A stretch of DNA of 64,000 nucleotides from an uncultured Prevotellaceae bacterium (GTDB lineage Bacteria > Bacteroidota > Bacteroidia > Bacteroidales > Bacteroidaceae): contig ONCQ01000031.1 in the NCBI GenBank assembly GCA_900316355.1, forward strand, positions 43,007 to 107,006, written 5' to 3'. Each line of letters starts with the position of its first letter. Within the stretch, counting starts at the first letter, position 1. The position numbers and the translations under genes are program-made. The notes beneath the pieces were generated by a model that was not told where the DNA came from, did not search any database, and worked only from the letters and a program-made list of their open reading frames with translations. Of this stretch, positions 14,634 to 56,288 are shown piece after piece.

Positions 14634-14673
14634 TTATGAGTCCTCCCCCTTGGGGAGTTAGAGGGGGCTCCTT
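14634..14673. repeat. GC-rich palindromic element (family member) before rprY
   Basis: GAGTCCTCCCCCTTGGGGAG followed by TTAGAGGGGGCTC is an inverted C-run/G-run element of the family found at 18960, 19074, 24158 and elsewhere. It sits between rprX and rprY. Confidence 0.65.
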
Positions 14674-14679
14674 ACAACT

Positions 14680-15390
14680 ATGACACAAGAAGAATCCAAA
14701 CTGAAAATCCTGCTGTGCGAGGACGACGAGAGCCTCGGCATGTTGCTGCGCGAGTATCTCCAGGCGAAAGGCTATGAGGCAGACCTCTGCCCTGATGGCG
14801 AAGCCGGGTACAAGGCCTTCCTGAAGACGGCCTATGACATGTGTGTGCTGGATGTGATGATGCCGAAGATGGACGGCTTCGCGCTGGCACAGGAAATCCG
14901 CCAGGTGAATCAGGATGTGCCCATCATCTTCCTGACCGCCAAGAACCTCAAGGAAGACATCTTCGAAGGCTTCAAGATTGGTGCTGATGACTATATCACA
15001 AAGCCCTTCTCCATGGAAGAACTCGTACTGCGTATGGAAGCCATCCTGCGCCGCGTCCATGGCAAGCAGCAGAAGAACGTGTCCATCTACCACATTGGCA
15101 AGTTTGACTTCGACACCAAGCGGCAAATCCTCAGCCTCGATGGCCGTCAGACCAAGCTGACCACCAAGGAGAGCGAGCTGCTCATCCTGCTCTGCGCCCA
15201 TGCCAACGAGGTGCTGCAGCGCGAGCTGGCGCTGAAGACCATCTGGATAGATGACAACTATTTCAACGCCCGTTCAATGGATGTTTACATCACTAAGCTG
15301 CGTAAGCATCTCAAGGACGACCCCGACATTGAAATCAACAACGTTCACGGTAAAGGTTATCGCCTGATAGCCCACCTCGAAGAGGATTGA
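14680..15390 (+). CDS. rprY: OmpR-type response regulator RprY
   Basis: A 236-residue protein. The receiver domain has acidic pair E14/D15/D16, phospho-acceptor Asp58 (VLDVMMP) and Lys in ITKPFSMEEL. The C-terminal winged-helix domain has LTTKESELLILLCAHANEVL and VYITKLRKHLKDD. It is very close to the Bacteroides RprY sequence I remember (LLCEDDE, MLLREYLQAKGY, IWIDDNYFNARSMD), hence the symbol. It lies 136 bp after rprX with a palindromic element between. It should bind DNA after phosphorylation by RprX; targets cannot be read from this window. Confidence 0.93.
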   Translation: MTQEESKLKILLCEDDESLGMLLREYLQAKGYEADLCPDGEAGYKAFLKTAYDMCVLDVMMPKMDGFALAQEIRQVNQDVPIIFLTAKNLKEDIFEGFKIGADDYITKPFSMEELVLRMEAILRRVHGKQQKNVSIYHIGKFDFDTKRQILSLDGRQTKLTTKESELLILLCAHANEVLQRELALKTIWIDDNYFNARSMDVYITKLRKHLKDDPDIEINNVHGKGYRLIAHLEED

Positions 15391-15394
15391 AAAA

Positions 15395-15426
15395 GAAGAG
15401 AGCCGCGCTCCAGCGCGGCTCTCTTC
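15395..15426. terminator. Terminator after rprY
   Basis: Stem GAAGAGAGCCGCGCT with its complement around a two-base loop, between convergent rprY and the small membrane protein gene. Confidence 0.8.
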
Positions 15427-15434
15427 GTATTTGT

Positions 15435-15611
15435 TTATTCCTCGTATTTAGGTTTCTTGTAATTAAAGTAGATATGCATTCCGATGCCGGCGATGATCAG
15501 CAGGATGCCTAAACCTTGTACGAAATTAAAGTCAACCCATCCTGCGAAGTAGCTGAGGATGAGCAGAAGTGCACCGATGATAGCGGTGAGGATGCCGTAA
15601 TAGAGTTTCAT
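15435..15611 (-). CDS. Small two-helix membrane protein
   Basis: A 58-residue protein (MKLYYGILTAIIGALLLILS...) with two membrane helices (ILTAIIGALLLILSYFAGW and GLGILLIIAGIGMHIYFNY) and a basic/acidic tail ending KYEE. The frame is open upstream to 15728, but those codons give no plausible N-terminus, so ATG at 15611 is used. Small proteins of this kind are common in Bacteroidales; I do not know a function. Confidence 0.7.
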   Translation of the reverse strand: MKLYYGILTAIIGALLLILSYFAGWVDFNFVQGLGILLIIAGIGMHIYFNYKKPKYEE

Positions 15612-15798
15612 TGTTTTGAGTATTTTATTTGTCGATTTACCAGCCGTGTAGGGGCATACGCCCGCTTTTCGTGCACAAATTAAGCCAAAAATTATGAAGG
15701 GGCGAAACTTTTTGCAGAAAAAGTGCATTAAAAGGCCTTTTTTGTCCTTCTGCGACGAAAAATAGGGGGTAAAGCCTTGCCATGTGAGAAAAATGTAC

Positions 15799-15806
15799 TA
15801 CCTTTG
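15799..15806 (+). promoter_or_regulatory. -7 box of the rpsF-rpsR-rplI operon
   Basis: TACCTTTG, 46 bases before ATG 15853. Confidence 0.8.
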
Positions 15807-15852
15807 CCGAGCATTTTTGCAAAAACAACCATTATTAATCATTTAACGTATT

Positions 15853-16200
15853 ATGAATCAGTACGAAACCGTTTTCATTTTAACTCCCGTTTTGTCTGAC
15901 GAACAGATGAAGGAAGCGGTCGAAAAGTTCAAGAAGCTGCTCACCGATGGTGGTGCAGAAATCCTGAACGAGGAACTGTGGGGCTTGAAGAAGCTTGCAT
16001 ATCCCATCGAGAAGAAATCGACGGGCTTCTATGCGATGCTTGAGTTCAAGGCTGAGCCCACGCTTATCGCTAAGCTGGAAGTCAACTATCGTCGCGACGA
16101 GAGAGTGCTGCGCTACATCACCGTTAAGAACGAGAAGTATGCCGCAGAGTATGCAGAGAAGAGAAGAAACAAAAAAGCTAACGCTAACAAGGAGGACTAA
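15853..16200 (+). CDS. rpsF: Ribosomal protein bS6
   Basis: A 115-residue protein opening [17 protein letters not shown], with [18 protein letters not shown] and [13 protein letters not shown], all standard bS6 elements. It forms a heterodimer with bS18 on the platform of the 30S subunit. First gene of rpsF-rpsR-rplI; 3 bp separate it from rpsR. The C-terminal Lys/Asn-rich tail is ordinary. Confidence 0.97.
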
Positions 16201-16203
16201 GCC

Positions 16204-16467: not shown

Positions 16468-16488
16468 TAATAAGGAGGAATAAGCACT

Positions 16489-17028: not shown

Positions 17029-17052
17029 GCATCCTTCTTATCCATTACATGC

Positions 17053-17086
17053 GAAGCCGCAGCACTCTTTCGGGTGCTGCGGCTTC
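17053..17086 (+). terminator. Terminator of the ribosomal operon
   Basis: Stem GAAGCCGCAGCAC / GTGCTGCGGCTTC with an 8-base loop, followed by a T-rich stretch, 24 bp after rplI. Confidence 0.85.
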
Positions 17087-17645: not shown

Positions 17646-17667
17646 CACTCGAAAACAAAAAATAAGC

Positions 17668-18999
17668 ATGAATCACGAAAGCTTGCTTCAAGGAAAAAAA
17701 GCGGTCTATTTCACCTTGGGCTGCAAACTCAATTTCGCCGAGACTTCCACCATCGCCCGTCAGCTGGAGGAGGTCGGCGTGAGGAAGGTGCGAAAAGGTG
17801 AGGTGGCTGACATCTGCATTGTCAACACCTGTAGCGTCACGGAGGTTGCTGACCACAAGTGCCGTCAGGCCATCCATAAACTTGTCCGTCAGCATCCTGG
17901 TGCTGTCGTTGTTGTCACCGGCTGCTATGCCCAACTCAAGCCTGTGGAGGTGGCCGCTATCGAGGGTGTCACCCTTGTCCTTAGCCAAAGTGAAAAAGGA
18001 AAGATTGTGGAATATTTGACGAAGTGCTCATCTGCGCCAGCCCCCTCAACCCTCACCCCTCAACCCTCACCCCCCTTTGTCCCCTCCTGTTCCTGCGGTG
18101 ATCGCACGCGCTACTTTCTGAAGGTGCAGGATGGCTGCAATTACTTCTGCACCTACTGCACCATTCCCTTTGCTCGCGGACGCAGTCGCAATGGCAGCAT
18201 CGACTCTCTGGTGGCTCAGGCGCGGCAGGCAGCAACCGACGGTGGCAAGGAGATTGTCATTACAGGAGTCAATATCGGCGACTTCGGGCGTACGACAGGC
18301 GAGTCCTTCCTCGATCTCCTGCGCGCCCTGGATCAGGTGGAAGGCATCGAGCGCTATCGCATCTCCAGCATCGAACCCAACCTGCTGACCGACGAAGTCC
18401 TGCAGTTCTGTGCTGACAGCCGCGCTTTCATGCCGCATTTCCATATCCCCCTGCAGTCCGGCAGCGATGCCGTGTTGAAGCTGATGCACCGTCGCTACGA
18501 CACCGCCTTCTTTTATAATAAGGTGTCGCGCGTGCGCGCGATAATGCCCGATGCCTTCATTGGTGTTGATGTCATCGTGGGCACGCGCGGTGAGACCGCA
18601 GAGCTGTTTGATGAGGCCGAGCGCTTCATACAGTCGTTGCCAGTGTCGCAGCTGCATGTCTTCAGCTACAGCGAGCGTCCTGGAACTGCCGCCCTGCGCA
18701 TCCCCCATGTCGTGCGTCCCGAGGAGAAGCATGAGCGCAGCCAGCGTCTTCTGGCTATCAGCGGTGAGAAGCTCACTGCATTCTACAACCAGTATGCCGG
18801 CACCACGCGCCCTGTCCTGCTCGAGCACTCACGCACCGCTGGCCTCTACAGCGGCTTCACCGACAACTACATCAAGGTGGAATATCGGGGAGAGGGAATC
18901 GATAACCAAATCCTATCGCTGAAGCTATGCGGGTGGAATGAAGAACACACAGCATTGCGGACCCTCCCCCCTGCCTCTCCCTTGTATGGAGGGGAGTAA
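17668..18999 (+). CDS. mtaB: tRNA t6A37 methylthiotransferase MtaB
   Basis: A 443-residue radical-SAM methylthiotransferase. The N-terminal UPF0004 domain has cysteines in LGCKLN, NTCSV and GCYAQ. The radical-SAM CxxxCxxC motif is C157-C161-C164 (CNYFCTYC). Later blocks are FHIPLQSGSD and FSYSERPGTAA. It converts t6A37 to ms2t6A37 in tRNAs. Two repeat-derived segments are visible: a Pro-rich linker at residues ~125-141 (PAPSTLTPQPSPP) between the two domains, and the last ~13 residues (LPPASPLYGGE), where the palindromic element also supplies the end of the gene. The TRAM-like end is therefore altered. Confidence 0.92.
   Translation: MNHESLLQGKKAVYFTLGCKLNFAETSTIARQLEEVGVRKVRKGEVADICIVNTCSVTEVADHKCRQAIHKLVRQHPGAVVVVTGCYAQLKPVEVAAIEGVTLVLSQSEKGKIVEYLTKCSSAPAPSTLTPQPSPPFVPSCSCGDRTRYFLKVQDGCNYFCTYCTIPFARGRSRNGSIDSLVAQARQAATDGGKEIVITGVNIGDFGRTTGESFLDLLRALDQVEGIERYRISSIEPNLLTDEVLQFCADSRAFMPHFHIPLQSGSDAVLKLMHRRYDTAFFYNKVSRVRAIMPDAFIGVDVIVGTRGETAELFDEAERFIQSLPVSQLHVFSYSERPGTAALRIPHVVRPEEKHERSQRLLAISGEKLTAFYNQYAGTTRPVLLEHSRTAGLYSGFTDNYIKVEYRGEGIDNQILSLKLCGWNEEHTALRTLPPASPLYGGE
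18041..18090. repeat. C-rich repeat element inside mtaB
   Basis: CAACCCTCACCCCT is repeated, followed by CCCCCCTTTGTCCCCTCC. It resembles the CTCACCCCTAACCCC element at 24301 and is translated in frame as a Pro-rich linker. Confidence 0.6.
18960..18996. repeat. GC-rich palindromic element at the 3' end of mtaB
   Basis: GACCCTCCCCCCTGCCTCTC followed by CCTTGTATGGAGGGGAG. Its reverse complement matches the element at 19074-19110, so the two are an inverted pair 77 bp apart. Confidence 0.8.
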
Positions 19000-19021
19000 T
19001 TACCTTTCAAGAATAGACAAT

Positions 19022-20125
19022 ATGGAAGAAAGTCAAAATACAGTAAATAATCAGTCAACTCAAAGACATTCTACTCCCCTCCCTTATAGGGAGGGGCAGG
19101 GGGGAGAGTCTGCTATTGTCATCTTAAACTGGAACGGCGCTCACATGCTACGCCGCTTCTTACCCTCTGTCCTCGCCAATACCCCCTCGTCGCTGGCATC
19201 CGTCATCGTTGCCGACAACGGCTCCACCGACGACTCCCTGGCTGTTCTCGCTGCGGAGTTCCCGCAGGTGGCAACGATAGTCCTCGACCGCAACTACGGC
19301 TTTGCCGAGGGCTACAACCAGGCGCTGCGCAGGGTGGGGGAGGGCTATGACTATTATCTCCTTCTCAACTCCGATGTGGAGACACCCGAAGGCTGGCTGC
19401 AACCCTTGCACGAATATATGGAGGCCCATCCAGAGGTCGCCGCCTGCCAGCCCAAGCTGCGCGCCGAACACACCCGCACTCATTTCGAGTATGCCGGAGC
19501 GGCAGGCGGTTACCTCGACGGCCTGGGTTATCCCTACTGCCGTGGCCGTGTTTTTGAGACCGTGGAGGAAGACTGCGGGCAGTATGACACTGTGGCTGAT
19601 GTCTTTTGGGCTACGGGTGCCGCGCTGATGATTCGTGCTACGACCTTTTGGCGCGTTGGCGGGCTCGATGGGCGTTTTTTTGCACATCAGGAGGAGATAG
19701 ACCTCTGCTGGCGCCTGCGTGCCCGTGGACATCGCATCGTCTGTGTGCCGCAGTCCGTCGTCTATCATGTTGGCGGCGGCACGCTGCCCAAGGAGAATCC
19801 CCGCAAGACTTTCCTGAACTTCCGCAACAACCTGCTCCTTCTCTACAAGAACCTCCCTGAGTATCGCCTGCGTCGCGTGCTCTTCATTCGCTTCTGGCTG
19901 GATGCCCTCGCCTCCGTCGTTTTCCTCATGAAAGGTGAGGGCCGCAGCTTCAAGGCCGTCTGGCAGGCGCGCCGCGAGTTCCGTCGCATCAAGTCAGACT
20001 TCGCTGCCGACCGACGTGCCAACCTCGCCGCCACCGTCCTTGATCCGATTCCGGAGCAGCACATCTCCAGCATCCTTGTTGCCTATCACTTGAAAGGCAG
20101 GAAGACCTTCGCACAACTTGGATGA
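19022..20125 (+). CDS. Family 2 glycosyltransferase
   Basis: A 367-residue GT-A enzyme: SAIVILNWNG opens the nucleotide-binding fold, VIVADNGSTDDS follows, and LLNSDVE supplies the DxD-like metal site. HQEEIDLCWRLRARGHRI is the acceptor-side block typical of rhamnosyl/galactosyl-type GT2 enzymes. A C-terminal amphipathic region suggests membrane association. The frame is open from 18938, but that would overlap mtaB, so ATG 19022 is used. Residues ~18-30 (TPLPYREGQGGES) are encoded by a palindromic element and precede the enzyme fold, so they are an added N-terminus. Likely role: cell-surface polysaccharide or glycoprotein assembly. Confidence 0.85.
   Translation: MEESQNTVNNQSTQRHSTPLPYREGQGGESAIVILNWNGAHMLRRFLPSVLANTPSSLASVIVADNGSTDDSLAVLAAEFPQVATIVLDRNYGFAEGYNQALRRVGEGYDYYLLLNSDVETPEGWLQPLHEYMEAHPEVAACQPKLRAEHTRTHFEYAGAAGGYLDGLGYPYCRGRVFETVEEDCGQYDTVADVFWATGAALMIRATTFWRVGGLDGRFFAHQEEIDLCWRLRARGHRIVCVPQSVVYHVGGGTLPKENPRKTFLNFRNNLLLLYKNLPEYRLRRVLFIRFWLDALASVVFLMKGEGRSFKAVWQARREFRRIKSDFAADRRANLAATVLDPIPEQHISSILVAYHLKGRKTFAQLG
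19074..19110. repeat. GC-rich palindromic element in the glycosyltransferase 5' coding region
   Basis: CTCCCCTCCCTTATAGGGAG followed by GGGCAGGGGGGAGAGTC. It contains an inner palindrome (CCTCCC/GGGAGG around TTATA) and is nearly the reverse complement of 24158-24192. Confidence 0.85.
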
Positions 20126-22803: not shown

Positions 22804-24267
22804 TTACAACCCTGTGGCATGTCGATAGGCCGTCTGTGCGTTCTGCAGGTCGATGAAGGCATCGGTGCGCTTGTCCTGTGCCTGCTGTAGCAGCAGTTGT
22901 GCCTGCAGCAGGTCGGACATGGTGGAGGTGCCGGCGCGGTACGTGTTGCGCTGTATGCGCAGGTTCTCGGTGGCTTGCTCCACGCTCTGCTGCGCCAAGG
23001 CGAGCTGGCTCTGAGCCTCGCTGATATCGTTGGCGGCTTTCTGGATGCGTATCTGCAGCTGCTGGGCGTTGTCGGTGAGCTGTTCGCGCGCTTCCTGTTC
23101 CTCGAATTTCTTCTTGCGGATGGCATGTGCGCCTCCCCACCAGCCGCTGATGGGCACGTTGACGCTGGCGAAGATCATGCCGAAGTGGCGGTCGTTGTCG
23201 AGCAGGTTGTGGTAGTTATAGCCAGCGCCGACGGCGATATTAGGCATGTTCTTGGCAATCTCCATCTTGCGTTGCAGCTTGGCGGCCTCCACGTTCTTCT
23301 CCAGGAGCTGGTATTCGGGAAGATTGGAGAGGGAAGAAGCCGTACTCTCCCCCGAAATATCCCCTGTGAGGGAGGTGGGGAGCATGTCTTGCTGCATGTC
23401 GGGCATCTGAATATCCAACAGATGGTGGTTTCCCTCGCCCGCGGGAGAGGCGTTAGGGGTGAGGCTGAGTCCGCAGAATTGCGCGAGCAGCATCTCCACG
23501 AGTGCCTGTCCGTTGTTGAGTTTCAGGCGCTGGCTCTTGATGTCGTTCTGTCGCAGCTGCACCTGTAGCAGGTCGTTGTTCAGCGCCACTCCGGCGCGCA
23601 CGGCGGTCTGCACGTCGTGCTCGATGTTGCCGAGCATCGCTTCCACGGCATCCAGCGTGCGCATCTTCTCGTGCATCGAGAGGAGCTGCCAGTAGTACTG
23701 TTCCACCTGCGCCTCGACATCTTTTTCAGAGAGTTGCAGCTGCAGATGACTGACCTCTTCGCCTATGCGTGCCAGCTTGTTGCCGAGGATAATCTGACCA
23801 CCGGTGAAGACAGGCTGGATAGCATTCACACCGGCAATAGTACCCTTCTTCATCATGGACATCGTCACCGGGTTACCAAGCCCTGCTAACACTTCAGGAG
23901 GCAGGATCTGTGCCATCATGGGTGCCAACTCCGCCAGCGCGGCCTTTGTCTCGGGTGAGAGCATCTCCTGCGGGTCGATGGTCATCTCGGCCATCTCCCT
24001 GTTGGCACGGAAGGTCATTCCCACGGCGCTGATGTTGGGGAAGTATTTGGTGAAGGCTTCCTTGCGCTGTTCCTTGGCGGCAGCAATCTTCAGGCGTCCC
24101 TTGCGCATGGCGATGTTGTGCTGCAGGGCAGAATCCTTCAATTGTTCCAATGAAAAGGACTCTCCCCCCGCCCTCCCTATAAGGGAGGGAGCGGTTACCT
24201 GCGCCATTGAGAAGCAGGTAGAGATGATTACGATGGATATGCTGACTAATAAACGCTTAAGTTTCAT
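22804..24267 (-). CDS. TolC-family outer-membrane efflux protein
   Basis: A 487-residue protein with a signal peptide (ending CFSMAQ) and the two helical OEP repeats of TolC (LQLSEKDVEAQVEQYYWQLL and QLRIQKAANDISEAQSQLAL). The C-terminal ADxLxAQ-like motif reads TMSDLLQAQLLLQQAQD. It forms the outer-membrane exit duct for the RND pump encoded upstream. Three repeat-derived segments are translated in frame: residues ~26-37 (APSLIGRAGGES) just after the signal peptide, ~268-280 (TPNASPAGEG) and ~296-309 (PTSLTGDISGES). The last two fall in the linker between the OEP repeats. Third gene of the efflux operon. Confidence 0.9.
   Translation of the reverse strand: MKLKRLLVSISIVIISTCFSMAQVTAPSLIGRAGGESFSLEQLKDSALQHNIAMRKGRLKIAAAKEQRKEAFTKYFPNISAVGMTFRANREMAEMTIDPQEMLSPETKAALAELAPMMAQILPPEVLAGLGNPVTMSMMKKGTIAGVNAIQPVFTGGQIILGNKLARIGEEVSHLQLQLSEKDVEAQVEQYYWQLLSMHEKMRTLDAVEAMLGNIEHDVQTAVRAGVALNNDLLQVQLRQNDIKSQRLKLNNGQALVEMLLAQFCGLSLTPNASPAGEGNHHLLDIQMPDMQQDMLPTSLTGDISGESTASSLSNLPEYQLLEKNVEAAKLQRKMEIAKNMPNIAVGAGYNYHNLLDNDRHFGMIFASVNVPISGWWGGAHAIRKKKFEEQEAREQLTDNAQQLQIRIQKAANDISEAQSQLALAQQSVEQATENLRIQRNTYRAGTSTMSDLLQAQLLLQQAQDKRTDAFIDLQNAQTAYRHATGL
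23343..23381. repeat. GC-rich palindromic element in tolC, copy A
   Basis: TACTCTCCCCCGAAATATCC followed by CCTGTGAGGGAGGTGGGGAG. It is a diverged member of the CTCTCCCCC...GGGAGG family. Confidence 0.65.
23430..23466. repeat. GC-rich element in tolC, copy B
   Basis: TTCCCTCGCCCGCGGGAGAG followed by GCGTTAGGGGTGAGGCT. It shares GTTAGGGGTGAGG with the intergenic element at 24301-24375. Confidence 0.7.
24158..24192. repeat. GC-rich palindromic element in tolC, copy C
   Basis: GACTCTCCCCCCGCCCTCCC followed by TATAAGGGAGGGAG. It is almost the reverse complement of the element at 19074-19110 and lies just after the signal-peptide codons. Confidence 0.85.
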
Positions 24268-24300
24268 AGTATAATGTATTCAAATTCTCAAAACTATTTG

Positions 24301-24375
24301 CTCCCTCCCATAAGTTCCCCTCGCCCTTTGGAGAGGGGTTAGGGGTGAGGCCCGGGAGGGTGGGGGAGAGTCCTC
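24301..24375. repeat. Composite GC-rich palindromic repeat between RND pump and tolC genes
   Basis: CTCCCTCCCATAAG, then CCCCTCGCCCTTTGGAGAGG, then GGTTAGGGGTGAGG and GGGAGGGTGGGGGAGAGTCC. It appears to be one element type nested inside the other and fills most of the 107-bp gap within the operon. Confidence 0.8.
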
Positions 24376-27300
24376 TATTTCTTTACACTTAGTTTCCAAT
24401 ACAATACGGGCAGCACGGTGACCACGAGGATGAGGGTGCCGATACCGCCTGCGAAGATGGTGACGCCCACGGGCATCCAGAACGAGGAGCCCGCGATGAT
24501 CATGGGAATCACGCCCACGGCCGTGGTGGCTGTTGTGAGGAAGATGGGCACCATGCGTCGGCGGCCGGCATCGTAGGCTGCTTCCTCGATGGCGTAGTTA
24601 TAGCGCTGACGATAGGCGGTGTGCTCCTCGGGTGTGGGATGCTCCGGTGCCGGATGTTCGGCGTGGAAGCGCTTCATCAGATTGTCGGCATGTTCGAAGA
24701 TGAGAATCTCGTTGCGCATGATGATGCCCATGAGTGTGATGACGCCCATCACGGAGGTCAGGCCCAGCGTGCGGTTCATGATGCCCAGTCCCACGAGAGC
24801 GCCAGGAATCATCAGCGCCAGGGCTCCCATGCAGAGGAAGGTGATGCCGAAGCGCTTGAAGTTGAACAGCAGGAAGAAGAAAATGATGACGAGGGCGATG
24901 AGCACGCCGTTAAATATCTGCGGCATGGCCTCGGCATTGACTTCCAGTTCGCCGCCCACCTCTGTGCGCACGCCCTGGGGCAACTCTATCTCGTTGTTCA
25001 TGATGTCAGCGAGGCGGCGTTCGATGGGTTCGGCATAGACGCCTTTGACCATCTCTGCCGTGACGGTGATGCAGCGCTCTCCGCCTCGGTGTACGATGCG
25101 GCTCTCGCTCCACAGGGGTTTCACGGCAGCCACCTGTCGCAGGGCTATGGTGCTGTTGGCGCCTCCGAGTCCTCCGGCGAGCATGGTCAGCGGTGTGGCC
25201 ACCGACCAGTTCTCGACATCGGCGAAGGTGCCGTTGGTCTCATCCATGACCACGATGGGCACCTCGTAGTCGCCTTCCCACAGCTGTCCCACGCGCAGCG
25301 AACCGGAGGCGGCGCTGAGTGAGAGTGCAGCCGAGGCGCGTGTGATGCCCATCTGTGCGGCCTTCACGGGGTCGAGTTCTACGTTCACGATGGGCGAGGG
25401 CTGCAGGTAGTCGGTGTGCACCCATTCCAGCTCGGGCATCTCGCGCATGCGTTCCATCATGCGTTCGGCCACGGCGTGCAGCGAGTCGATGTCCTCGCCG
25501 TAGAAGCGGTACTCCAGTTCGGGGGTGTAAAGCATATCGAGACGCTTGAAGCGCACGTAAGCGTTGGGGAAGGCCTCTGCCAGCAGGGGCTGGTAGTGGG
25601 CCAGCAGTTCGAGGGTGGCCTCGTTGGAGGTGGTGCCCACGATGAACTGTGCATAGTTCTTGCCCGCCATCTGCGGGGCGTAGGTGTCCATGAAGCGTGG
25701 CGATGAGCAGCCGAGGAAGGTGGTGATGGCTGTGATGTGCTCGTCCTTCTCAAGGATGTGTCTCACGGAATCCGCCACCATGTTCGTCTCAGCAAGTCCC
25801 TTGCCCTCGGGCAGGAAGATTTCCACGGCAAACTGGTCGCGGTCGGCGAAGGGGAACTGGCGCATCTTCAGCGTGGGCACGATGAGCAGCGAGGCGCCTA
25901 TCGCGGCCGCGCCGAGGGCGATGGTGGCCCAGGGATGGCGGAAGTTCCAGTTGAGGACGTGGGTGTAGAGCTCCTGCACGCGGTCTGTGAAGCGTTTTCC
26001 CTGCTTCTCGGTATCGGGGACACCGATAATCTTCACACACAGGAAGGGTATCACGCCCACGGCCAGCAGCAGCGACACCAGCAGGTTGATGCCCACGGTC
26101 CAGGGGAAGTCCAGCAGGGCATCCAGGAAGGCGCCCTTGAGGGTGTAGAGCAGGGGGAAGAAGATGACGGTGATGCACACCGTGGCCAGCAGCATCGGCA
26201 TGAAGTACTGCTTGGCGGAGGTGATGGCGGCATCCTTGGGCTTCATGCCCTTGCCCACATATTCCAGATAGCCGTCGATGATGACGATGGAGTTATCCAC
26301 GATCATGCCCAGCACGATGATGAGTGCCGCCAGCGTCACGATGTTCAGCTCGATGCCGGCGAAGTACATGAAGGCCACCGACACGAAGGTGCTCAGCGGG
26401 ATGGTGATGGCCGCCACGATGGCGGAGCGCAGGGGGAAGAGCAGCATCATCACGACGATGATGATGACCATCGACAGCAGCAGGTCGCGCAGGAAGTCAT
26501 GGATGCTCAGTTCCACCACCTTGGGCTTGTCGGCGATGCGCGTGAGGGTGACGTCGTCGGGCAGCACGTCGGTGCGGAAGTCGTCGAGGACGCGGTTCAC
26601 GAGTCGCCCGTAGTTCACGACATTGTTGCCGGGCACCATCTCCATGGAGAGGAGCACGCAGGGGTGTCCGTTGTGCTCGATGCGGCTGGCATGCGGGTCA
26701 TATTCGCGCACCACGCGGGCCACGTCGCCCACGCGTACCGTCTTGCCGCTGGCGGCATCGCTGTAGATGATGAGCGAGGCTATCTCCTGCTCATCGTGGC
26801 CTGTAGGCGCGATGTGCAGCGGTATCTGCTGGTCGGCATCGTCGAGGCTGCCGCTGAGAGTCGTCAGGCCCTCGCCCTGCAGGGTGCTGAGGAGCATCTG
26901 CTGTCCGATGCCGTAGGCCTGCAGGCGTTGGCGGTCGATGTAGAGGCTAATCTGCTGGCGCTGTTCGCCGAAGAGCTTCACGTTGGTCACCGAGGGTATG
27001 CGCCGCAGGCGGTCGCCGAGCTGGTCGCTGTACTGCCTCAGCTCGCGGTAGCTGCGCTCGCCGCTTTCGATGGCGATGAGCAGGGCCGAGGTGTTGCCGA
27101 AGTCATCGTTGGTCACGAGTGCCACGACGCCCTGCGGCAGCGACTGCTTGAACTGCTGCAGTCCCAGTTTCAGCTTGCTCCATACCTCGTCTTTGTTGCG
27201 TACGGAGCCGTTGAGTTCCACCATCGTGATGCAGAGTCCGTTCTGCGAGGTGGTGGTAGTTTTCTTGCGGTTCACCTCGTTGTAGGTGAAGAGATAGCGC

Positions 27301-27521
27301 TCCAGGGGGCGTGCCACCTGCAGCTCCACCTCCTCTGTGGAGGCTCCGGGATAGACGGCTATGACGACGCCTTGCCGCACGGTGACTTGTGGGAACTCAT
27401 CCTTCGGCATGACATACATGCCATAGATGCCAATGAAAAACAGTATCCCTATGATGAGCAGCGAGATGCGGTAGTGCTCCAGCGGCCAGACGTACCAAGA
27501 TGTTTTTGGATTCATGGTCAT
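24375..27521 (-). CDS. RND efflux pump inner-membrane permease (AcrB-like)
   Basis: A 1048-residue protein with the RND layout: helix 1 (YRISLLIIGILFFIGIYGM), a large periplasmic porter domain, helices 2-6 with charged relay AALIIVLGMIVDNSIVIIDG, a second porter domain, then helices 7-12 including GVITLMGIIMRNEILIFEHA. Twelve helices and ~1,050 residues are normal for the AcrB/MdtBC class (HAE1/HAE3-like). It exports substrates from periplasm and membrane using proton influx, with the adaptor and TolC genes on either side. ATG at 27521 (MTMNPKT); ATG 27515 is an alternative. Confidence 0.95.
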   Translation of the reverse strand: MTMNPKTSWYVWPLEHYRISLLIIGILFFIGIYGMYVMPKDEFPQVTVRQGVVIAVYPGASTEEVELQVARPLERYLFTYNEVNRKKTTTTSQNGLCITMVELNGSVRNKDEVWSKLKLGLQQFKQSLPQGVVALVTNDDFGNTSALLIAIESGERSYRELRQYSDQLGDRLRRIPSVTNVKLFGEQRQQISLYIDRQRLQAYGIGQQMLLSTLQGEGLTTLSGSLDDADQQIPLHIAPTGHDEQEIASLIIYSDAASGKTVRVGDVARVVREYDPHASRIEHNGHPCVLLSMEMVPGNNVVNYGRLVNRVLDDFRTDVLPDDVTLTRIADKPKVVELSIHDFLRDLLLSMVIIIVVMMLLFPLRSAIVAAITIPLSTFVSVAFMYFAGIELNIVTLAALIIVLGMIVDNSIVIIDGYLEYVGKGMKPKDAAITSAKQYFMPMLLATVCITVIFFPLLYTLKGAFLDALLDFPWTVGINLLVSLLLAVGVIPFLCVKIIGVPDTEKQGKRFTDRVQELYTHVLNWNFRHPWATIALGAAAIGASLLIVPTLKMRQFPFADRDQFAVEIFLPEGKGLAETNMVADSVRHILEKDEHITAITTFLGCSSPRFMDTYAPQMAGKNYAQFIVGTTSNEATLELLAHYQPLLAEAFPNAYVRFKRLDMLYTPELEYRFYGEDIDSLHAVAERMMERMREMPELEWVHTDYLQPSPIVNVELDPVKAAQMGITRASAALSLSAASGSLRVGQLWEGDYEVPIVVMDETNGTFADVENWSVATPLTMLAGGLGGANSTIALRQVAAVKPLWSESRIVHRGGERCITVTAEMVKGVYAEPIERRLADIMNNEIELPQGVRTEVGGELEVNAEAMPQIFNGVLIALVIIFFFLLFNFKRFGITFLCMGALALMIPGALVGLGIMNRTLGLTSVMGVITLMGIIMRNEILIFEHADNLMKRFHAEHPAPEHPTPEEHTAYRQRYNYAIEEAAYDAGRRRMVPIFLTTATTAVGVIPMIIAGSSFWMPVGVTIFAGGIGTLILVVTVLPVLYWKLSVKK

Positions 27522-31298: not shown

Positions 31299-31405
31299 CT
31301 TCAAGCCTTACGTTCCCCTTTAGGGGGCTCGGTGGCTACACCTTGCTGCGTTGGCGTTTGCACCTTACTGCATCGCGCTTCGATGCATGGTGCGTTGTTT
31401 TTTTG
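31261..31405 (-). ncRNA. Candidate structured small RNA (~145 nt)
   Basis: There is a TACCTTTG box at 31412-31419 and a terminator at 31258-31291. Between them lies no open frame longer than seven codons. The RNA would start AGCATCAAAAAA and fold a nested hairpin (GCACC..GCATCG..CGATGC..GGTGC) near 31340-31380, then a CCCCCTAAAGGGG hairpin at ~31315-31327, then the terminator. Its 3' end is antisense to the last ~35 bases of the C_GCAxxG_C_C gene. I do not recognise an Rfam family. Confidence 0.55.
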
Positions 31406-31661: not shown

Positions 31662-31912
31662 CCGAGATGTCTGCCTTTTCCTAAATATATTTGACTCCTT
31701 TAGGCCTTGTTTTTTAACATTTTCCTATCCATACGGAAAAGGTTGACACTTTATCTTAGCGGGCAATGATTGCTGATGCAGCTGTCATGAACTCTTATGC
31801 CTCTATTTGCATAAGTTCACGCCCCCCTGTTTGTCAATGATAATGGTATGGGGTTGTATTAAATAATGTGTAAAATTGAGGTTGAATAGCGGGCGTTTCG
31901 AAAAAAGAATTG

Positions 31913-31920
31913 TATCTTTG
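31913..31920 (+). promoter_or_regulatory. -7 box of the LRR lipoprotein gene
   Basis: TATCTTTG followed by CA, 28 bases before ATG 31949. Confidence 0.75.
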
Positions 31921-31948
31921 CACTCAGAAATCTATTATACACTTAACT

Positions 31949-33274
31949 ATGAAACATTATTCATGGATGGCAGTCTCGGCTTTGTTGCTGGGCTTCATGA
32001 TGTTAAACCTTACCTCATGCAGTAAGGATGAGGAGAATGGGACTGCTGCCCCGACAGAGACAGAGCAAGGCGGGAAAGAAGATTTTAAGCCCGTGGTAGT
32101 CCCCGATGTCGTGGTCACTGTGGATGACAGCGGCCAAGCCAATGGCGGTCACCACTTTCAGAAAATCGACGAGACCAGTTTCTACATTGATGATATCAAA
32201 TACACCGCTTCACAAGGGGATTTAATGGTTACTGGCTACAATGAAGCCTATTTCAAGGGCGCAGCCGTCATCATCTCGACCTTGAAGTATCAGGGGCGCA
32301 CGATGAATGTGACACGCGTTAAGGACGTTGCATTCAAGAATTGCACAATGATAACCTCATGCGTCATAGGAAATAAAGTTTCGCGCATTGGCAATGAGGC
32401 ATTTGACGGTTGTACCAGCCTGTCCTCTGTGACCATTCCCAGCAGCGTGACGAGTATTGGAGAGAAAGCATTTGAGCATTGCCGTGGCCTGAAATCAGTG
32501 GTTATTCCCATCGGTTTGATGAGCATTGGGGAGGGGGCATTTCATGATTGCAATGGTCTGACATCTGTGACTATTCCCAGTAGTGTGACGAGCATTGGTA
32601 GTTCCGCGTTCTCTGGTTGCAGCGGCCTGAAAACTGTAATCATTCCAAACGGTGTGACGAGCATTGAAACTTCTGCATTCTCTGGTTGCAGCGGTCTGAC
32701 CTCTGTGACTATTCCGAACAGCGTGACGTGCATTGATAATGAGGCATTCTATTTTTGCAGCGGTCTGACCTCTGTGACCATTCCGGGCAGTGTAACGAGC
32801 ATTGGTAGTTCCGCGTTCTCTGGTTGCAGCGGCCTAATCTCTTTGACCATTGGCAACAGCGTGACAAGCGTTGGGGACGATGCTTTCTTTGGTTGCGGCG
32901 GCCTGATTTCTGTGACCATTCCCAGCAGCGTGACAAGCATAGGAAATAGGGCGTTCGCTGTCTGTAGCAGCCTGATCTCAGTGACCATTCCTAACAGCGT
33001 GACGAGCATTGGACAGTATGCGTTCTATCAATGCCGCAGCTTGACCTCTGTGATTATTGGTAGCGGTGTAACGGGCATTGGAAGTTATGCGTTCGCTAAT
33101 TGCAGCGGCCTGCAGCATTTTTATTGCCACGCTGTGAATCCGCCCTCGACAGTGAGCACCGTGTTTTACGACGCCCCCATATCCTCTGCCACGTTCCATG
33201 TGCCAGCCGAGTCACTTGACGCATACAAGGCGAGAAGTCCTTGGAGTGAGTTTGGCACCATTGTGGCGCTGTAA
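31949..33274 (+). CDS. BspA-type leucine-rich-repeat surface lipoprotein
   Basis: A 441-residue lipoprotein (lipobox NLTSC, then SKDEENG). From residue ~85 to ~385 it is an array of about 12-13 LRR_5 repeats of 23 residues with core GLTSVTIPSSVTSIGSSAF. The end, VPAESLDAYKARSPWSEFGT, is the usual BspA-like cap. ATG 31949 is used because the in-frame ATG at 31910 lies upstream of or inside the -7 box. BspA-type proteins bind host matrix or other bacteria at the surface. The 69-bp repeat units are so alike in DNA that copy number could change by slippage or recombination. Confidence 0.85.
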   Translation: MKHYSWMAVSALLLGFMMLNLTSCSKDEENGTAAPTETEQGGKEDFKPVVVPDVVVTVDDSGQANGGHHFQKIDETSFYIDDIKYTASQGDLMVTGYNEAYFKGAAVIISTLKYQGRTMNVTRVKDVAFKNCTMITSCVIGNKVSRIGNEAFDGCTSLSSVTIPSSVTSIGEKAFEHCRGLKSVVIPIGLMSIGEGAFHDCNGLTSVTIPSSVTSIGSSAFSGCSGLKTVIIPNGVTSIETSAFSGCSGLTSVTIPNSVTCIDNEAFYFCSGLTSVTIPGSVTSIGSSAFSGCSGLISLTIGNSVTSVGDDAFFGCGGLISVTIPSSVTSIGNRAFAVCSSLISVTIPNSVTSIGQYAFYQCRSLTSVIIGSGVTGIGSYAFANCSGLQHFYCHAVNPPSTVSTVFYDAPISSATFHVPAESLDAYKARSPWSEFGTIVAL

Positions 33275-33430: not shown

Positions 33431-33550
33431 ATCAAGAATTAGAGAATTTTCTAGCTTTTGCAAAGCAAAAGACATTCTATTCATTCTCATCAATTCATAA
33501 GACAGCGTATTGTATATTGAGAAAAATTCTCCAATTCTCTAATTCTTGAT
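33431..33550. repeat. MITE-like element, complete copy (120 bp)
   Basis: Both ends carry the inverted sequence ATCAAGAATTAGAGAATT. The interior recurs in opposite orientation at 44284-44374. No coding capacity of its own; a short frame runs through it on the plus strand. It occupies most of the gene-free stretch 33275-33615; nothing else is seen there apart from the hairpin at 33322. Confidence 0.8.
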
Positions 33551-33615
33551 AGAAATAAAATACTTGACAGACAACAAGTTGTTTACATCCGAAACTTGAA
33601 TTATTTATTATTATC

Positions 33616-35689: not shown

Positions 35690-36894
35690 ATGGTTGGACA
35701 AGATAAATGGCAATGGCAGGAGCCGGGGACGGCATGGCGGGGCGTCGGGGTGTACCATGTCACGCTGACGGTGCCGTCGCGCGAGCCGTTGCTTGGGACA
35801 TTGGTGATTCCGGATCGCGATCCCTCAAAGGCGCGGATAGAGCGGACTGCCTTGGGAGAGGCTGTGGTCGGAGAGTTGTACGTGATGTGCAGGCATTATC
35901 CGGCCATCCGCATCCTGCAGTTCAGCCTGATGCCTGACCATCTGCATGCTGTTATCCAGGTGACACGGGTGATGGAAACGAGCATCCGCAGCGTGATACG
36001 CGGATATTGGCAGGGGGTGAAGAAACATGGCAGGGCTTATTCTTTGGCTCTTGCTGCCGAATTAAATTCGGACACAACGGACGAAGGGGGCCGCGATTCG
36101 GAGACAACGAACGAAGGGAACGGGAATTCGGACACAACGGACGAAGGGGGCCGCGATTCGGAGCGGAGACAACGAACGAAGGGGGCCGCGATTCGGAGAC
36201 AACAAACGAAGGGAAGGGGAACGCAATCGAGGGAAATGCGGGGACAACGAACGCAATCGAGGGAAATGCGGGGGGAATGAACGAAGGGGGCTATGCTTTT
36301 CCGGTGTTTACGGAGCGCCCGTTTATTCGGCCGTTGTCCCGCCGTGGGCAGCTGCATACAATGATTCAGTATGTCAGGATGAACCCGCAACGGTTGGCTA
36401 CCAAGCGCTTGAGGCCGGGCTATTTCCGTGTGCAGAAGGAGATTGGGATTGGCGGAAGGGTGTATGACGGCGTGGGGAATATGACGATACTGACGGCTGA
36501 CTGTTTTGACACCGTGCATGTGCGTCGCATGATGGTGGAAGAGGCGCAACATGGCGCAACGGAAAGGCTGAGGAATTACATGAATTCCTGTGTGCTGAAG
36601 GCCCGAAAGGGTGTTGTCATGGTTTCTCCTTTCATCTCGCCTCATGAGAAGCAGGTGATGGATGTCCTGCTTCGTGAGCAACGCCCTTTCATCTTTCTGG
36701 CGGACAATGGCTTCAGGGAGTATTATAAGCCGTCGGATGTGCTCTTTGATGCTTGTGCGGCGGGGCGTGTGCTGATACTGAGTCCGTGGCCATACGATGC
36801 CCAAAAGCGGCACATCAGCCGCGCGGAGTGCGTGCAGTTGAATGCGATGGCAGCGGAGATTTGCGAATCTTTGAATGCTCACCCAAACGTATAG
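35690..36894 (+). pseudogene. REP-associated tyrosine transposase (RAYT), frameshifted
   Basis: Frame one (from 35690) carries the Y1-transposase HUH motif (SLMPDHLHAVI, His84/His86). Frame two (to 36894) carries the expected tyrosine block (IQYVRMNPQRL) and a C-terminal region with VMVSPFISPHEKQVMDVLL and RVLILSPWPYD. Both frames read the same Thr/Glu/Gly repeat (DTTDEGGRDSETTNEG), so they are halves of one ~399-residue gene. The break is a duplicated CGGAG at 36159-36168; removing five bases restores one frame. Frame one alone runs to 36280, without the tyrosine. RAYTs move REP-type palindromes and are usually single-copy. Confidence 0.8.
36065..36275 (+). repeat. 30-bp minisatellite inside the RAYT gene
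   Basis: About five units of ATTCGGAGACAACGAACGAA followed by GGGGGCCGCG (with variants), then two units of CGCAATCGAGGGAAATGCGG. One unit carries the extra CGGAG that breaks the frame. Confidence 0.85.
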
Positions 36895-44270: not shown

Positions 44271-44283
44271 AATGATTATTTCT

Positions 44284-44374
44284 ATCAAGAATTAGAGAAT
44301 TGGAGAATTTTTCTCAATATGCAATACGCTGTCTTATGAATTGATGAGAATGAATAGAATGTCTTTTGCTTTGC
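44284..44374. repeat. MITE-like element, truncated inverted copy (91 bp)
   Basis: Reverse-complement match to most of 33431-33550 with about one mismatch. It keeps one terminal inverted repeat (ATCAAGAATTAGAGAATT) and lacks the other end. Confidence 0.85.
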
Positions 44375-46949: not shown

Positions 46950-47095
46950 AAAAGCCCCCGAGTCCCCTAAAGGGGAGCGTGGGGAGGGAAGAGGGATGAG
47001 TGAAAATTATGAATTATGAATGACGAATGACGAATAAAATAATGAAAAGTGAAAGAGTGAAGAGTGAAAAATGAGAGGTGAAAGAGTGAAAAGGG
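46950..47095. repeat. Palindromic element plus simple repeats
   Basis: AGCCCCCGAGTCCCCTAAAG followed by GGGAGCGTGGGGAGGG (46954-46988) is close to the CCCCCTAAAGGGG element at 31315. After it come tandem words GAATTATGAAT, GACGAAT twice, and several copies of GTGAAAGAGTGAA (46997-47095). Confidence 0.7.
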
Positions 47096-53690: not shown

Positions 53691-53702
53691 TAGAATGATA
53701 GA

Positions 53703-56288
53703 ATGAAAAATAAGAGTTACCATCAGATCTTATCGCTCATGGCAAAGGTGAGCACTCTCCCCCTCCAAAGGGGCGTGAGGAGGTGTGCCTTGTATTTTTC
53801 ACTTTTCATTCTTGCATTATTCATTCATTCTTGCTCCACCACTTCCCAACTCCCTGAAGGAGAGCAGTTATACACTGGCATTTCAGAGATTGCCTACGGA
53901 CATAAAGCCGGAACAAAAATGGGAGCGAGGACTGACAGCACGGGCGTGATTACGGCTGTGGGCAAGGCATACGAGACGGTGTCAGATCTACTGCGTGGCA
54001 ATGTGCACACTCAAGACTTGCAGTCCGCGCTCAAGGAGACCAAAGGTCTGAGTCCAGAGCAGCGCGACTCACTACAGCAGGCCTCACAAGTGTTTGAAGC
54101 AGCCACAGCCACCATCAAGGAGGAGTTGAATGCGGCACTGGCTTATGCCCCTAACAATGCCATCTTCGGCAGTTCCAAGGTGCGATGGCCGCTGCCCATA
54201 GGTCTGTGGGTGTATAATCGCTATGCCAAATCCGAGAGTCGCTTCGGGCGTTGGATGCAGAATACCATAGGTTCGCAGCCTCGCACCATCAGCATGGCTA
54301 ATCCGCAAGTGCGTGTGCAGGTGGCGCGCCAGACGTTGCGCAACTATGGTTTCTTCCACGGCTCGGCAGATTATGAGGTGCAAACTTCGTTGCGTGACTC
54401 GCTGAAGGCCAAGATAGCTTATTCGGTGTATCCCGGTCCATTGTTCACGTTGGGAAACATCGAATACCAGCGCTTTACAGGTCTCACAGACAGCATCGTG
54501 CAACGCACCATGAAGAGTTCAAATCTCCATACGGGTGATGCCTTTAGTGCGGCAGCCCTGGATGCTGAGCGTACGCGCCTTAGCGAGCTGTTTCGCAATA
54601 ATGGATTTTACTACTACCGTCCGGAGTATATCACCTTCCGGGCCGACACGCTGATGACACCTTATACAGTGCATCTTCAGGTGCGTCCGCGTGCCGACAT
54701 GCCGGCACAGGCCAAGAACCGTTTCTTCATGGGACGTACGAATGTCATCGTGTTGCCCTATGGCGTTCGTGAGCTCACGGACAGCATCCGTCGGCGCCAC
54801 TTCTCCTACCGTTGGGGCAGCGAACCAGGTACGAAGAAACCACCCATCCGACTCGGAGCCATCGTGCACAACTTATATTATGAAACAGGCTCCATCTACC
54901 GTCAGCGTCTGCACGAGATGATTCAGGGGAAGCTTGCGGGAATGGGCGTGTTCTCCAATATACAGATGAGCTATACGCCGCGCGACACCAGCGCCACGTG
55001 TGACACGCTTGATGTGAATATCTTTGCTATTCTGGACAAACCTTGGGACAGCGAATTCGAGGCAAAAGTAACCAATAAGAGCAATGGTCTGTTGGGACCG
55101 GGCGTGGCATGGGGTATGACCAAACGCAATGCCTTCCGCGGTGCCGAGACCGTCAACTTCAAAATTTATGGAAGCTATGAATGGCAGACGGGTGCCACGG
55201 TGGTGGATGCTGCCGAGGACCGCAGCCTTTTGAACTCCTATGAGTTAGGTGCCTCGCTGACGCTGACCTATCCGCGCCTGAAGTTCTTCGGCCTCACCCG
55301 TAAGCTCAATCGTCGTGCCGAGGCCTCCACCAATTACAAAGTCGATGTGACCTGGATGAACCGTGCCAGCTACTTCCGCATGATTAACCTTGGCGCACGC
55401 ATGACCTACACCTATCAACGTGTGCGACGCTGGAAGCATGAGCTGACACCGTTGCGACTGGACTACACGATGCTCTCTCACAAGTCTGCGCGCTTCGACT
55501 CCATCATGAATGCCAATCAGGCATTATATGTGAGTATGCGCAATCAGCTGGTGCCTTCGATAGGCTACAACGTCACGTATAATCGTCGTTGGCGTAGCGG
55601 ACATCAGCGTACGATTCTCCTCGGAGCCAAAGAGGCCGGGCATCTCGTCAATGGTATTTACGCGCTGGCAGGTCGTGCCATCAAGGAGCGTGACAAACAC
55701 TTACTTGGTGTGCCCTTCGCGCAGTTCCTGAAGCTGACGGGTGAGTGGCGCGAGACCTTCCCCCTGACATCGAGGAGCTGTATTGCTGCGCGCGCTTTTG
55801 TCGGAGCTGTGTGGAGCTATCATAACAGCACGATGGCTCCCTATGCAGACCTCTTCAGCGTAGGCGGTGCCAATAGCATTCGCGCCTTTGCTGTTCGCAG
55901 TATCGGTCCTGGCAGCTACCATCCAGCCAACTCGAAATGGAGCTATGTGGATCAGGTGGGTAACTTGAAGATTGAGGCTAATGTGGAATACCGCTTCCCA
56001 CTGCTGGGCGGTTTGGGCGGTGCCATATTCGTGGATGCCGGCAATGTGTGGCTGATGAAGGCTGATGAAGCCCGGCCTGGTGGAGACATTGATGCCAAAC
56101 GTTTTGGCAAAGATATCGCCTTAGGCACAGGGGTGGGCCTCCGATATGACCTTGATTTTCTGGTTCTGCGCTTCGATATAGGCGTAGGCATCCATGCGCC
56201 TTATGACACAGGTCGTAGCGGCTACTACAATATGCGCCGCTTCTGGGATAGCCTCGGGTTCCACATTGCTGTTGGCTATCCGTTCTAA
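53703..56288 (+). CDS. tamL: BamA-family outer-membrane lipoprotein TamL
   Basis: An 861-residue protein: lipobox FIHSC (Cys ~44, then STTSQLPEGEQLYTG), POTRA-type domains (~residues 190-430) and a C-terminal 16-strand barrel with VGGANSIRAFAVRSIGPGSY, the loop/strand motif of Omp85 proteins, ending in GFHIAVGYPF. In Bacteroidetes the TamA role is filled by this lipoprotein form. The n-region is unusually long: residues ~17-29 (TLPLQRGVRR) are encoded by a palindromic repeat inserted before the hydrophobic core. An internal start at the second Met (codon 13) is possible but would still keep the repeat. Confidence 0.9.
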   Translation: MKNKSYHQILSLMAKVSTLPLQRGVRRCALYFSLFILALFIHSCSTTSQLPEGEQLYTGISEIAYGHKAGTKMGARTDSTGVITAVGKAYETVSDLLRGNVHTQDLQSALKETKGLSPEQRDSLQQASQVFEAATATIKEELNAALAYAPNNAIFGSSKVRWPLPIGLWVYNRYAKSESRFGRWMQNTIGSQPRTISMANPQVRVQVARQTLRNYGFFHGSADYEVQTSLRDSLKAKIAYSVYPGPLFTLGNIEYQRFTGLTDSIVQRTMKSSNLHTGDAFSAAALDAERTRLSELFRNNGFYYYRPEYITFRADTLMTPYTVHLQVRPRADMPAQAKNRFFMGRTNVIVLPYGVRELTDSIRRRHFSYRWGSEPGTKKPPIRLGAIVHNLYYETGSIYRQRLHEMIQGKLAGMGVFSNIQMSYTPRDTSATCDTLDVNIFAILDKPWDSEFEAKVTNKSNGLLGPGVAWGMTKRNAFRGAETVNFKIYGSYEWQTGATVVDAAEDRSLLNSYELGASLTLTYPRLKFFGLTRKLNRRAEASTNYKVDVTWMNRASYFRMINLGARMTYTYQRVRRWKHELTPLRLDYTMLSHKSARFDSIMNANQALYVSMRNQLVPSIGYNVTYNRRWRSGHQRTILLGAKEAGHLVNGIYALAGRAIKERDKHLLGVPFAQFLKLTGEWRETFPLTSRSCIAARAFVGAVWSYHNSTMAPYADLFSVGGANSIRAFAVRSIGPGSYHPANSKWSYVDQVGNLKIEANVEYRFPLLGGLGGAIFVDAGNVWLMKADEARPGGDIDAKRFGKDIALGTGVGLRYDLDFLVLRFDIGVGIHAPYDTGRSGYYNMRRFWDSLGFHIAVGYPF
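53752..53790. repeat. GC-rich palindromic element in the tamL signal-peptide region
   Basis: CACTCTCCCCCTCCAAAGGG followed by GCGTGAGGAGGTG. It shares CACTCTCCCCC and the CC..AAAGG centre with other family members. Confidence 0.75.

Follow-up and report, generated by a model that had tools for sequence, protein, structure and literature searches.

The window analyzed here, a stretch of 64,000 nucleotides from an uncultured Prevotellaceae bacterium (GCA_900316355.1, contig ONCQ01000031.1, positions 43,007 to 107,006 of the forward strand), carries GC-rich palindromes in and between its genes, and we consider, with a probability of roughly three in four, that the main family among them is mobile but non-autonomous, a REPIN-like set of palindromes belonging to Prevotella-type bacteria. 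What spreads would be an inverted pair of arms with their heads outward, each arm comprising a head, a GC-rich hairpin, and a short tail. It can be hypothesized that the hairpins are the substrate of a trans-acting transposase, with an RAYT-like HUH enzyme as the likeliest candidate, which spreads these pairs, and that insertions persist at positions where about 14 to 40 additional residues are tolerated by the protein, namely, behind a start codon or signal peptide, before a stop codon, or in linkers and loops. The outcome would be chance linkers and terminal extensions rather than a selected linker function. The host itself is probably a Prevotella-type bacterium of the rumen, since the element is shared with named metagenome-assembled genomes (MAGs) whose titles, where they give a source, point to ruminant forestomachs.

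A covariance model of the main family, R1, was built from 16 seed sequences with the hairpin CCCTCCC-loop-GGGAGGG. In the host's own genome of 3.16 Mb, with 150 of 1849 candidates scored, it gave 133 matches at E ≤ 1e-3, or 132 after removal of one reverse reading of another arm; arm counts are thus lower bounds, and the genome holds at least 132 arms. The core CTCCCnnnnnGGGAGG occurs there 87 times forward and 88 times in reverse, compared with 0 and 2 for a backwards control pattern. The family is present in 79 of 101 genus genomes, with arm numbers ranging from none found to the upper limit of the search. Each arm consists of a head, GAC[TC]C[TA]CCCCC, a spacer of a few nucleotides, a stem of 7 to 8 bp with a short loop, AG, and a tail, so that the whole can be written as GACYCWCCCCC-n-CCCTCCC-loop-GGGAGGG-AG; by eye, the tails fall into two rough types, GTGGTCACCTTTCAAGA and GTAGAATGTATTTGAG. 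The base preceding GAC is A at a frequency of 0.69 and G at 0.29 (123 arms), with a purine in 98%. Beyond this purine at position -1, the head-side flanks of the 123 arms gave no evident direct repeat, and the target duplication that the initial annotation had hoped to delimit could not be defined.

The arrangement of neighboring arms is highly regular. Within 500 bp of each other in the own genome, arms form 37 pairs with heads outward (+-), none with heads inward (-+), none in ++ orientation, and one in -- orientation; the inner gaps of the 37 outward pairs measure 45 to 175 nucleotides in 36 cases and 436 in one. Outside the own genome, 80 of 108 stretches from named Prevotellaceae, Bacteroidaceae, and Bacteroidales MAGs were analyzed, and these contain 84 +-, 6 ++, 4 --, and 2 -+ pairs, with 51 and 54 nucleotides as the commonest gaps. 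Among the 58 unpaired arms, 56 were examined for a partner and 2 skipped, and a hairpin-like match within 160 nucleotides was seen on the tail side in 31 and on the head side in 1, from which it follows that many unpaired arms have a degenerate partner in unchanged geometry. A second family, with 10 genome-wide matches to CCTCACCCCTNNCNCCTCT, is intertwined with the first in that, by eye, about 6 of the 10 copies are found where an R1 arm would have its loop (positions 24314 to 24351 of the window among them). Independent nested insertion into hairpin loops was rejected on the basis of this recurrent position, which makes a composite arm more likely.

Most arms lie within genes. Classification of 126 of the 132 arms (6 lay outside the stretches fetched) placed 41 between genes, 37 internally, 33 at N-termini (up to 90 nucleotides from a called start), 6 at C-termini, and 9 partially in a gene, such that 76 are located inside predicted open reading frames (ORFs) as N-terminal, internal, or C-terminal arms. 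All 33 N-terminal arms, just behind a start codon or signal peptide, have the head directed towards the gene body, as expected if heads-outward pairs sit at gene boundaries. For 18 of these 33, there is no ATG within 15 codons and no GTG or TTG within 12 codons past the arm; if the gene works, the extension must therefore be translated. Some genes have a signal peptide ahead of the arm, as in the TolC-like protein of the window, where a signal peptide ending in FSMAQ precedes the arm-encoded VTAPSLIGRAGGES and the mature protein resumes with FSLEQL, retaining the Q that follows the signal-peptide cleavage site under the Q-rule described for Bacteroidetes (PMC5837995). At C-termini, five of six arms encode a version of TLPPAPPLQGGE, ending in a stop codon supplied by the tail. 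Peptides such as TPLPTREGQGGGS and APSLIGRAGGES would be expected at N-termini and in HisS or PyrG; the encoded peptides are rich in P, G, and S, with the arm read in several frames and on both strands. Arm cores are free of stop codons in at least four of six frames in 118 of 126 cases, which would help to explain in-frame tolerance and make survival in genes likely.

Reading-frame statistics are consistent with this picture. Pairs lying wholly within one ORF, deduplicated by sequence and not by orthology, have a unit length of 2 modulo 3 in 23 of 42 cases (P = 0.003), compared with 26 of 87 pairs outside an ORF (Fisher p = 0.011). The preference resides in pairs of up to 125 nucleotides (16 of 20; P = 2.5e-5), as opposed to 7 of 22 longer pairs, with a cutoff that was picked after the lengths had been seen. 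Short intragenic pairs thus act as one in-frame block, of their length plus one base (or plus four), and the lack of a frame preference in long pairs is what would be expected if their interior is host sequence.

Comparison with relatives places these insertions into evolutionary context. Matches to solved structures underlie the names of PyrG, UvrA, Mfd, and the citramalate-synthase-like protein; the remaining gene names were assigned by eye. GcvPB is matched in 23 of 31 genomes, own included, and in the 13 relative loci printed (11 genomes) it starts with MNR or MNN, followed by a conserved LYG or YYG region; in one relative (G003), the GcvPA and GcvPB genes run together, with about 20 nucleotides from the arm entry point to the GcvPB start. 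In the own genome, a 158-nucleotide pair at this boundary provides GcvPA with a new C-terminus and stop and GcvPB with a new start and N-terminus, and the repeat family can in this way remodel gene boundaries. The APH-domain protein has matches in 38 of 41 genomes, the own one counted; its query residues 196 to 218 are covered by no orthologous match of another genome, short matches over these residues being element copies elsewhere, and 19 relative junctions show a variable loop in place of the insert; arms and interior were gained together. HisS, also matched in 38 of 41 genomes, carries an arm at the same place in the own genome and in G042, and 18 of the 20 loci printed are without it, one of which (G020) has a different insert. 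In none of 19 printed relatives of the TolC-like protein was the arm seen by eye; in these, signal peptide and domain are separated by a variable segment of at most about 25 residues, and at least one (G017) carries a different palindromic insert close to the arm site.

Taken with PyrG, the alignments indicate that most orthologues examined are without the insert. They agree, together with the further copies in genome and genus, with the initial annotation's view of a mobile or copy-prone family, a view that withstands the refuting conditions set by that annotation. In widely conserved proteins such as HisS, PyrG, UvrA, GcvPB, and Mfd, the family offers many natural in-frame insertions, from which insertion tolerance can be mapped. 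It also carries a warning for annotation, in that many N-termini and internal segments in such genomes are derived from the element. Two further loci were noticed: an arm pair in the linker of a FeoA-FeoB-like fused ORF (G000:C21:76756-76906, by eye), a fusion that may be a product of arm-pair insertion, and a DegT-like aminotransferase of another species, likewise named by eye, with an in-frame insert containing at least one palindrome (SFPSEENKAPSQQERAGGEASAPFPSGEGRGEA; L059, region of 4122, G022).

The interiors of some pairs hold host sequence. In PyrG (29 of 41 genomes match, own included, the match in G056 being a piece of the element only), arms at C24:129555 and C24:129752 flank the conserved block VIDLM..YEAY, which in 21 aligned relatives is joined to its neighbors without R1 arms; the middle part of the alignment is missing from the output, and the blocks used here are unaffected. 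On this alignment, the arms flank conserved host coding sequence. Several relatives carry other, species-specific inserts in the same loops, and PyrG of G015 has kept GGGAGCAGTTACC at the first site, resembling the tail of a lost arm. The own PyrG has, in addition, two compact inserts of another palindromic-looking family (G000:C24:128565-128654 and 129048-129143, L243; APLSSPEGD..SPRGGLEGA). The TolC-like gene of the window provides a comparable case, with its start codon and signal peptide between two arms; it and PyrG are the genes for which bracketing is based on aligned arm-free relatives.

Similar arrangements probably exist in UvrA, Mfd, and the citramalate-synthase-like gene. For the UvrA pair at C34:33108/33289, the HMMER alignment proceeds up to query residue 264 (181 in 3pih), resumes at 322 (199), and pairs the peptide of the right arm with VKLVVDRL of 3pih; inspection by eye instead favors the enclosed YLLIDRL as the true match, which would place host sequence between the arms. 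Mfd in the own genome (L144) and in another MAG (L328, which matches solved Mfd) has arms on both sides of KELLLIDAQ.FEKGF..FRRIE, the right arms being read in different frames. In four loci of the citramalate-synthase-like gene (L132, L322, L351, and L400), YVF.LLDS..DL is flanked by inserts on either side, with differing arm types. Between the flanks (166 and 182), the homologue 3ble counts 15 residues, roughly as many as the enclosed host piece, compared with 62 in L322. The sites shared by unlike arms in Mfd and the citramalate-synthase-like gene may point either to old pairs in which arms of the resident subfamily replaced the earlier ones or to entry into the same loops more than once. 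Judged by eye, PolA-like (L313), MutL-like (L337), and GH2-like (L358) proteins resemble these cases.

With a host block between its arms, a pair is not always one inserted block. Arms may have entered at two nearby sites or been placed around host DNA, and we tentatively propose, at somewhat less than even odds, that two arms enter 50 to 170 nucleotides apart and bracket preexisting host DNA in frame, one event rebuilding both segment ends. We know of no REPIN or IS200/IS605 insertion model that predicts bracketing entry, which, if true, would be a new insertion mode of a mobile palindrome. If bracketing is one event, the view of the REP doublet as a block moving with its own spacer would be an incomplete picture, and the mechanism would become directly testable in strain-level genomes.

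An ordinary REPIN, inserting as a block with its own spacer, is the rival account that fares best, although we regard it as rather unlikely. The long interiors would then be diverged spacers, and host DNA between arms would reflect the coincidence of two insertions in neighboring tolerant loops. The recurrent 51- and 54-nucleotide interiors in other species fit this account, as do the similar interiors of 48 to 50 nucleotides at C56:52915, C23:11828, and C24:10654 (by eye) and the gain of a whole block, interior included, in the APH-domain gene. It is contradicted by the conserved VIDLM..YEAY in the PyrG interior and by the signal peptide in the TolC-like interior, and coincidence does not predict an orientation ratio of 37:0.

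Less probable still is snap-back template switching, by which an arm would be copied in inverted form 50 to 170 nucleotides further on the nascent strand with host DNA between. It would yield inverted copies around host DNA and could account for the agreement within pairs, which share the loop class in 32 of 34 cases (shuffled mean, 17.1) and the head type in 23 of 35 (10.5). Within the TAN class, the exact loops of a pair are the same in 4 of 13 cases (1.6 expected, p = 0.05), which also left gene conversion equalizing the loops of a pair with weak support. A local copy would not, however, differ from its template as left and right arms frequently do in spacer and tail type, and heads-inward pairs would be expected too, unless entry is always in one direction with respect to replication.

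We think it improbable that the arms are kept for a selected function, be it as protein linkers, N-terminal padding, or RNA hairpins tuning translation or mRNA stability. The 33 arms in fixed orientation behind start codons or signal peptides and the 6 at C-termini could be read in its favor, but pair geometry alone accounts for the orientation, most orthologues examined manage without an arm, the peptide is read in several frames, and arm numbers vary across the genus, with none found in some members. The statement in the initial annotation that the element acts as linker or N-terminal padding is hence not upheld, as the data speak for tolerance at termini, linkers, and loops and not for benefit. 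Ordinary low-complexity coding sequence without any mobile element has next to no chance of being correct: the peptides are indeed rich in P, G, and S, but the same DNA occurs in several frames, on both strands, and between genes, control patterns are nearly absent, and most orthologues are without the segment.

Placing the REPIN-like family beside known elements reveals both kinship and difference. REPINs of Pseudomonas fluorescens, REP doublets forming hairpins that were analyzed in extragenic space (PMC3116915), resemble it in having the inverted pair as unit, conserved arms with a less conserved spacer, and many copies per genome; the at least 132 arms lie above the more than 100 copies per genome typical of REPs or REPINs, and inverted doublets prevail here as well (37 to 0, and 84 to 2 in the MAG loci). 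In contrast to those REPINs, most classified arms are located in or at ORFs, with 41 of 126 between genes. Host DNA can make up the interior, GAC[TC]C serves as the tag, and 34 loci yielded no RAYT flanked by the same element. Since most arms are not extragenic, the head tag is neither GTAG nor CGTC, and no flanking RAYT was found in those loci, the family is named REPIN-like and not filed as a member.

Intragenic REPs with GTAG or CGTC tags have been described in frame in Opitutus terrae, Rickettsia conorii, and others (PMC3733652). As here, REPs or dimers inside ORFs add 20 to 30 residues, occur at N-termini, provide stop codons at 3' ends, and strike uvrA and other DNA-repair genes; the tags differ, and pairs bracketing host coding sequence do not feature in the section of that paper on intragenic REPs. 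In-frame acceptance, which the initial annotation regarded as unusual, is thus confirmed as an observation but is not in itself new. Rickettsia palindromic elements (PMC10969869) likewise are palindromes in frame in unrelated genes and are set apart, by description only, as elements of about 150 bp with a conserved peptide. The small mobile RU sequences of enterobacteria (PMC2759123) share the provision of reading frames inside genes and differ in sequence and architecture, again by description only. Among the top matches in open-access literature, as judged from titles and the beginnings of abstracts, there was no account of such a family in Prevotella.

The candidate mobilizing enzyme can be approached through RAYT-like genes. 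Pfam Y1_Tnp has two weak matches in the own genome, in proteins of 385 and 444 amino acids that carry MPDHxH and YxxDNP motifs, a low-complexity insert, and a C-terminal extension. In six aligned RAYT-like proteins, the two motifs are invariant; NCBIfam NF047646 (REP_Tyr_transpos) matches at E values of 1.6e-8 to 6e-13, below its cutoff. The notion, based on Y1_Tnp alone, that the arm-rich genomes G015, G016, G018, and G019 are devoid of such a transposase gene was dropped, as a wider profile of six RAYT-like proteins from five genomes (A3) matches there; A3 has matches in 64 of 101 genus genomes at E ≤ 1e-8, and the own genome accounts for 11 matches. TnpA-REP subclass 2.4 of Cyanobacteria and Bacteroidetes, with palindromes inside the transposase ORF (PMC6006769), is similar in that many RAYT-like ORFs of the genus contain GC-rich hairpins (seen without a shuffled control) and in the HUH-type and Y..NP motifs. 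It differs in having NH[IFV]H and YIxNNP in its table in place of MPDHxH and YxxDNP, in the low-complexity insert and extra C-terminal domain of the proteins here, which are likened to it without a phylogeny, and in that the palindromes inside RAYT-like ORFs here do not belong to the main family. The low-complexity insert lies between the HUH-type and tyrosine motifs (L057:1798-3132, L058:1608-2765, and relatives). The same proteins have a conserved C-terminal ISxGEK..FxACxxGxLLxLxP with weak, below-cutoff Pfam matches, possibly a fused second domain.

Of the 30 genomes in which 30 or more arms were found, 28 have RAYT-like genes, as do 36 of the other 71 (Fisher p = 2.9e-5; Spearman, 0.54; one of the 101 genomes, absent from both result sets, was entered as zero for both), a correlation that ignores kinship, genome size, and completeness and uses a profile from five of these genomes. 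The association itself speaks for the proposed mobile family; these caveats, among other points, weigh against it. The 34 RAYT-like loci, which overlap such that two or more genes are represented twice and of which L416 and L417 offer less than 0.5 kb on one side, contain no R1 match closer than 0.5 kb to the ORF; a RAYT flanked by its cognate arms was therefore rejected, and the enzyme that moves the family is a guess, although on such fragmented assemblies the gene may lie elsewhere or be lost. Six genomes have RAYT-like genes, yet no arm was found in them. The head GAC[TC]C is neither of the tags, GTAG or CGTC, by one of which REPs are defined at one end (PMC3733652), and the tail-side AGTAG is variable. 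Movement or excision was not observed, with one genome per species compared; the HisS site shared with G042 means that some insertions are shared or recurrent; and ORFs were called by our own codon-usage heuristic.

Within the window, all eleven sites listed by the initial annotation are indeed C- and G-rich, but the single family it proposed dissolves into several palindrome families, and its account included neither the inverted pairing of the arms nor their fixed orientation with respect to gene ends nor the enclosure of host DNA. Its count of at least seven sites in frame within coding sequence holds (18041, 18960, 19074, 23343, 23430, 24158, and 53752), the noncoding sites being 14634, 24301, 31312, and 46954. 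Among the matches listed, R1 members are 19075 to 19110 (-) and 24158 to 24191 (+), with weaker partners at 18960 to 18999 and 24301 to 24372 and, by eye, at 23343 to 23383 and 53752 to 53790.

The first pair has a degenerate left arm at 18960 to 18999 (+), which forms the C-terminus of an MtaB-like protein (LRTLPPASPLYGGE) with GAGTAA of the tail supplying the stop codon. Its interior (19000 to 19074) contains the ATG (19022) of a downstream glycosyltransferase-like gene, and the right arm at 19075 to 19110 (-; R1 match at C60:62081-62116) encodes TPLPYREGQGGES in the N-terminus of that protein; the regions 18960 to 18999 and 19072 to 19116 show an inverted match of 82%. In the second pair, the arm at 24158 to 24191 (+; C60:67164-67197) encodes TAPSLIGRAGGES between the signal peptide and mature domain of the TolC-like protein, and the interior, 24192 to 24300, read as host sequence, corresponds to the start codon and signal peptide of its gene (22804 to 24267, minus strand). 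The partner arm, 24301 to 24372 (-), follows directly after the stop codon of an AcrB-like gene (24375 to 27521, minus strand) and holds the family-2 hairpin in its loop.

The TolC-like protein has two more sites, a degenerate palindromic segment at 23343 to 23383 (MLPTSLTGDISGEST), where seven relatives have a short or variable stretch, and a family-2 element at 23430 to 23466 (-; SLTPNASPAGEGN). The degenerate arm at 53752 to 53790 (+; STLPLQRGVRRCA) lies near the N-terminus of the ORF 53703 to 56288. A C-rich in-frame segment of the MtaB-like protein, 18041 to 18090 (+), is without a clear hairpin and of uncertain assignment. Intergenic sites comprise a palindrome of another family at 14634 to 14670 (CTCCCCCTTGGGGAG-TTAGAGGGGGCTC) and short palindromes of another type at 31299 to 31337 and 46953 to 46991, partners with an inverted match of 79%. 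Rfam gave five weak matches between 14000 and 54500, every one below the gathering score. Single-stranded DNA folding of four window sites singly was mildly better than that of shuffles (z of -1.9, -1.6, -1.2, and -0.1), and single-site folding is therefore no proof of elements.

Other repeats were noticed in the window. A 99-nucleotide inverted repeat, 99% complementary, joins 33460 to 33558 with 44276 to 44374 at a distance of 10.7 kb and could represent a pair of insertion-sequence ends or bound an invertible segment. Eight tandem 69-nucleotide repeats of 23 residues each (32399 to 33111) lie in the ORF 31910 to 33274, and tandem repeats of 30 to 35 nucleotides (36068 to 36291; GACAACGAACGAAGGG..) in the ORF 35690 to 36280. 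A direct repeat of 268 nucleotides with 93% identity, at 1149 to 1416 and 5212 to 5479, has its copies 4 kb apart, and a perfect 30-nucleotide inverted repeat with a 3-nucleotide loop (11458 to 11520), terminator-like in appearance, is located at the end of the ORF 11514 to 12758.

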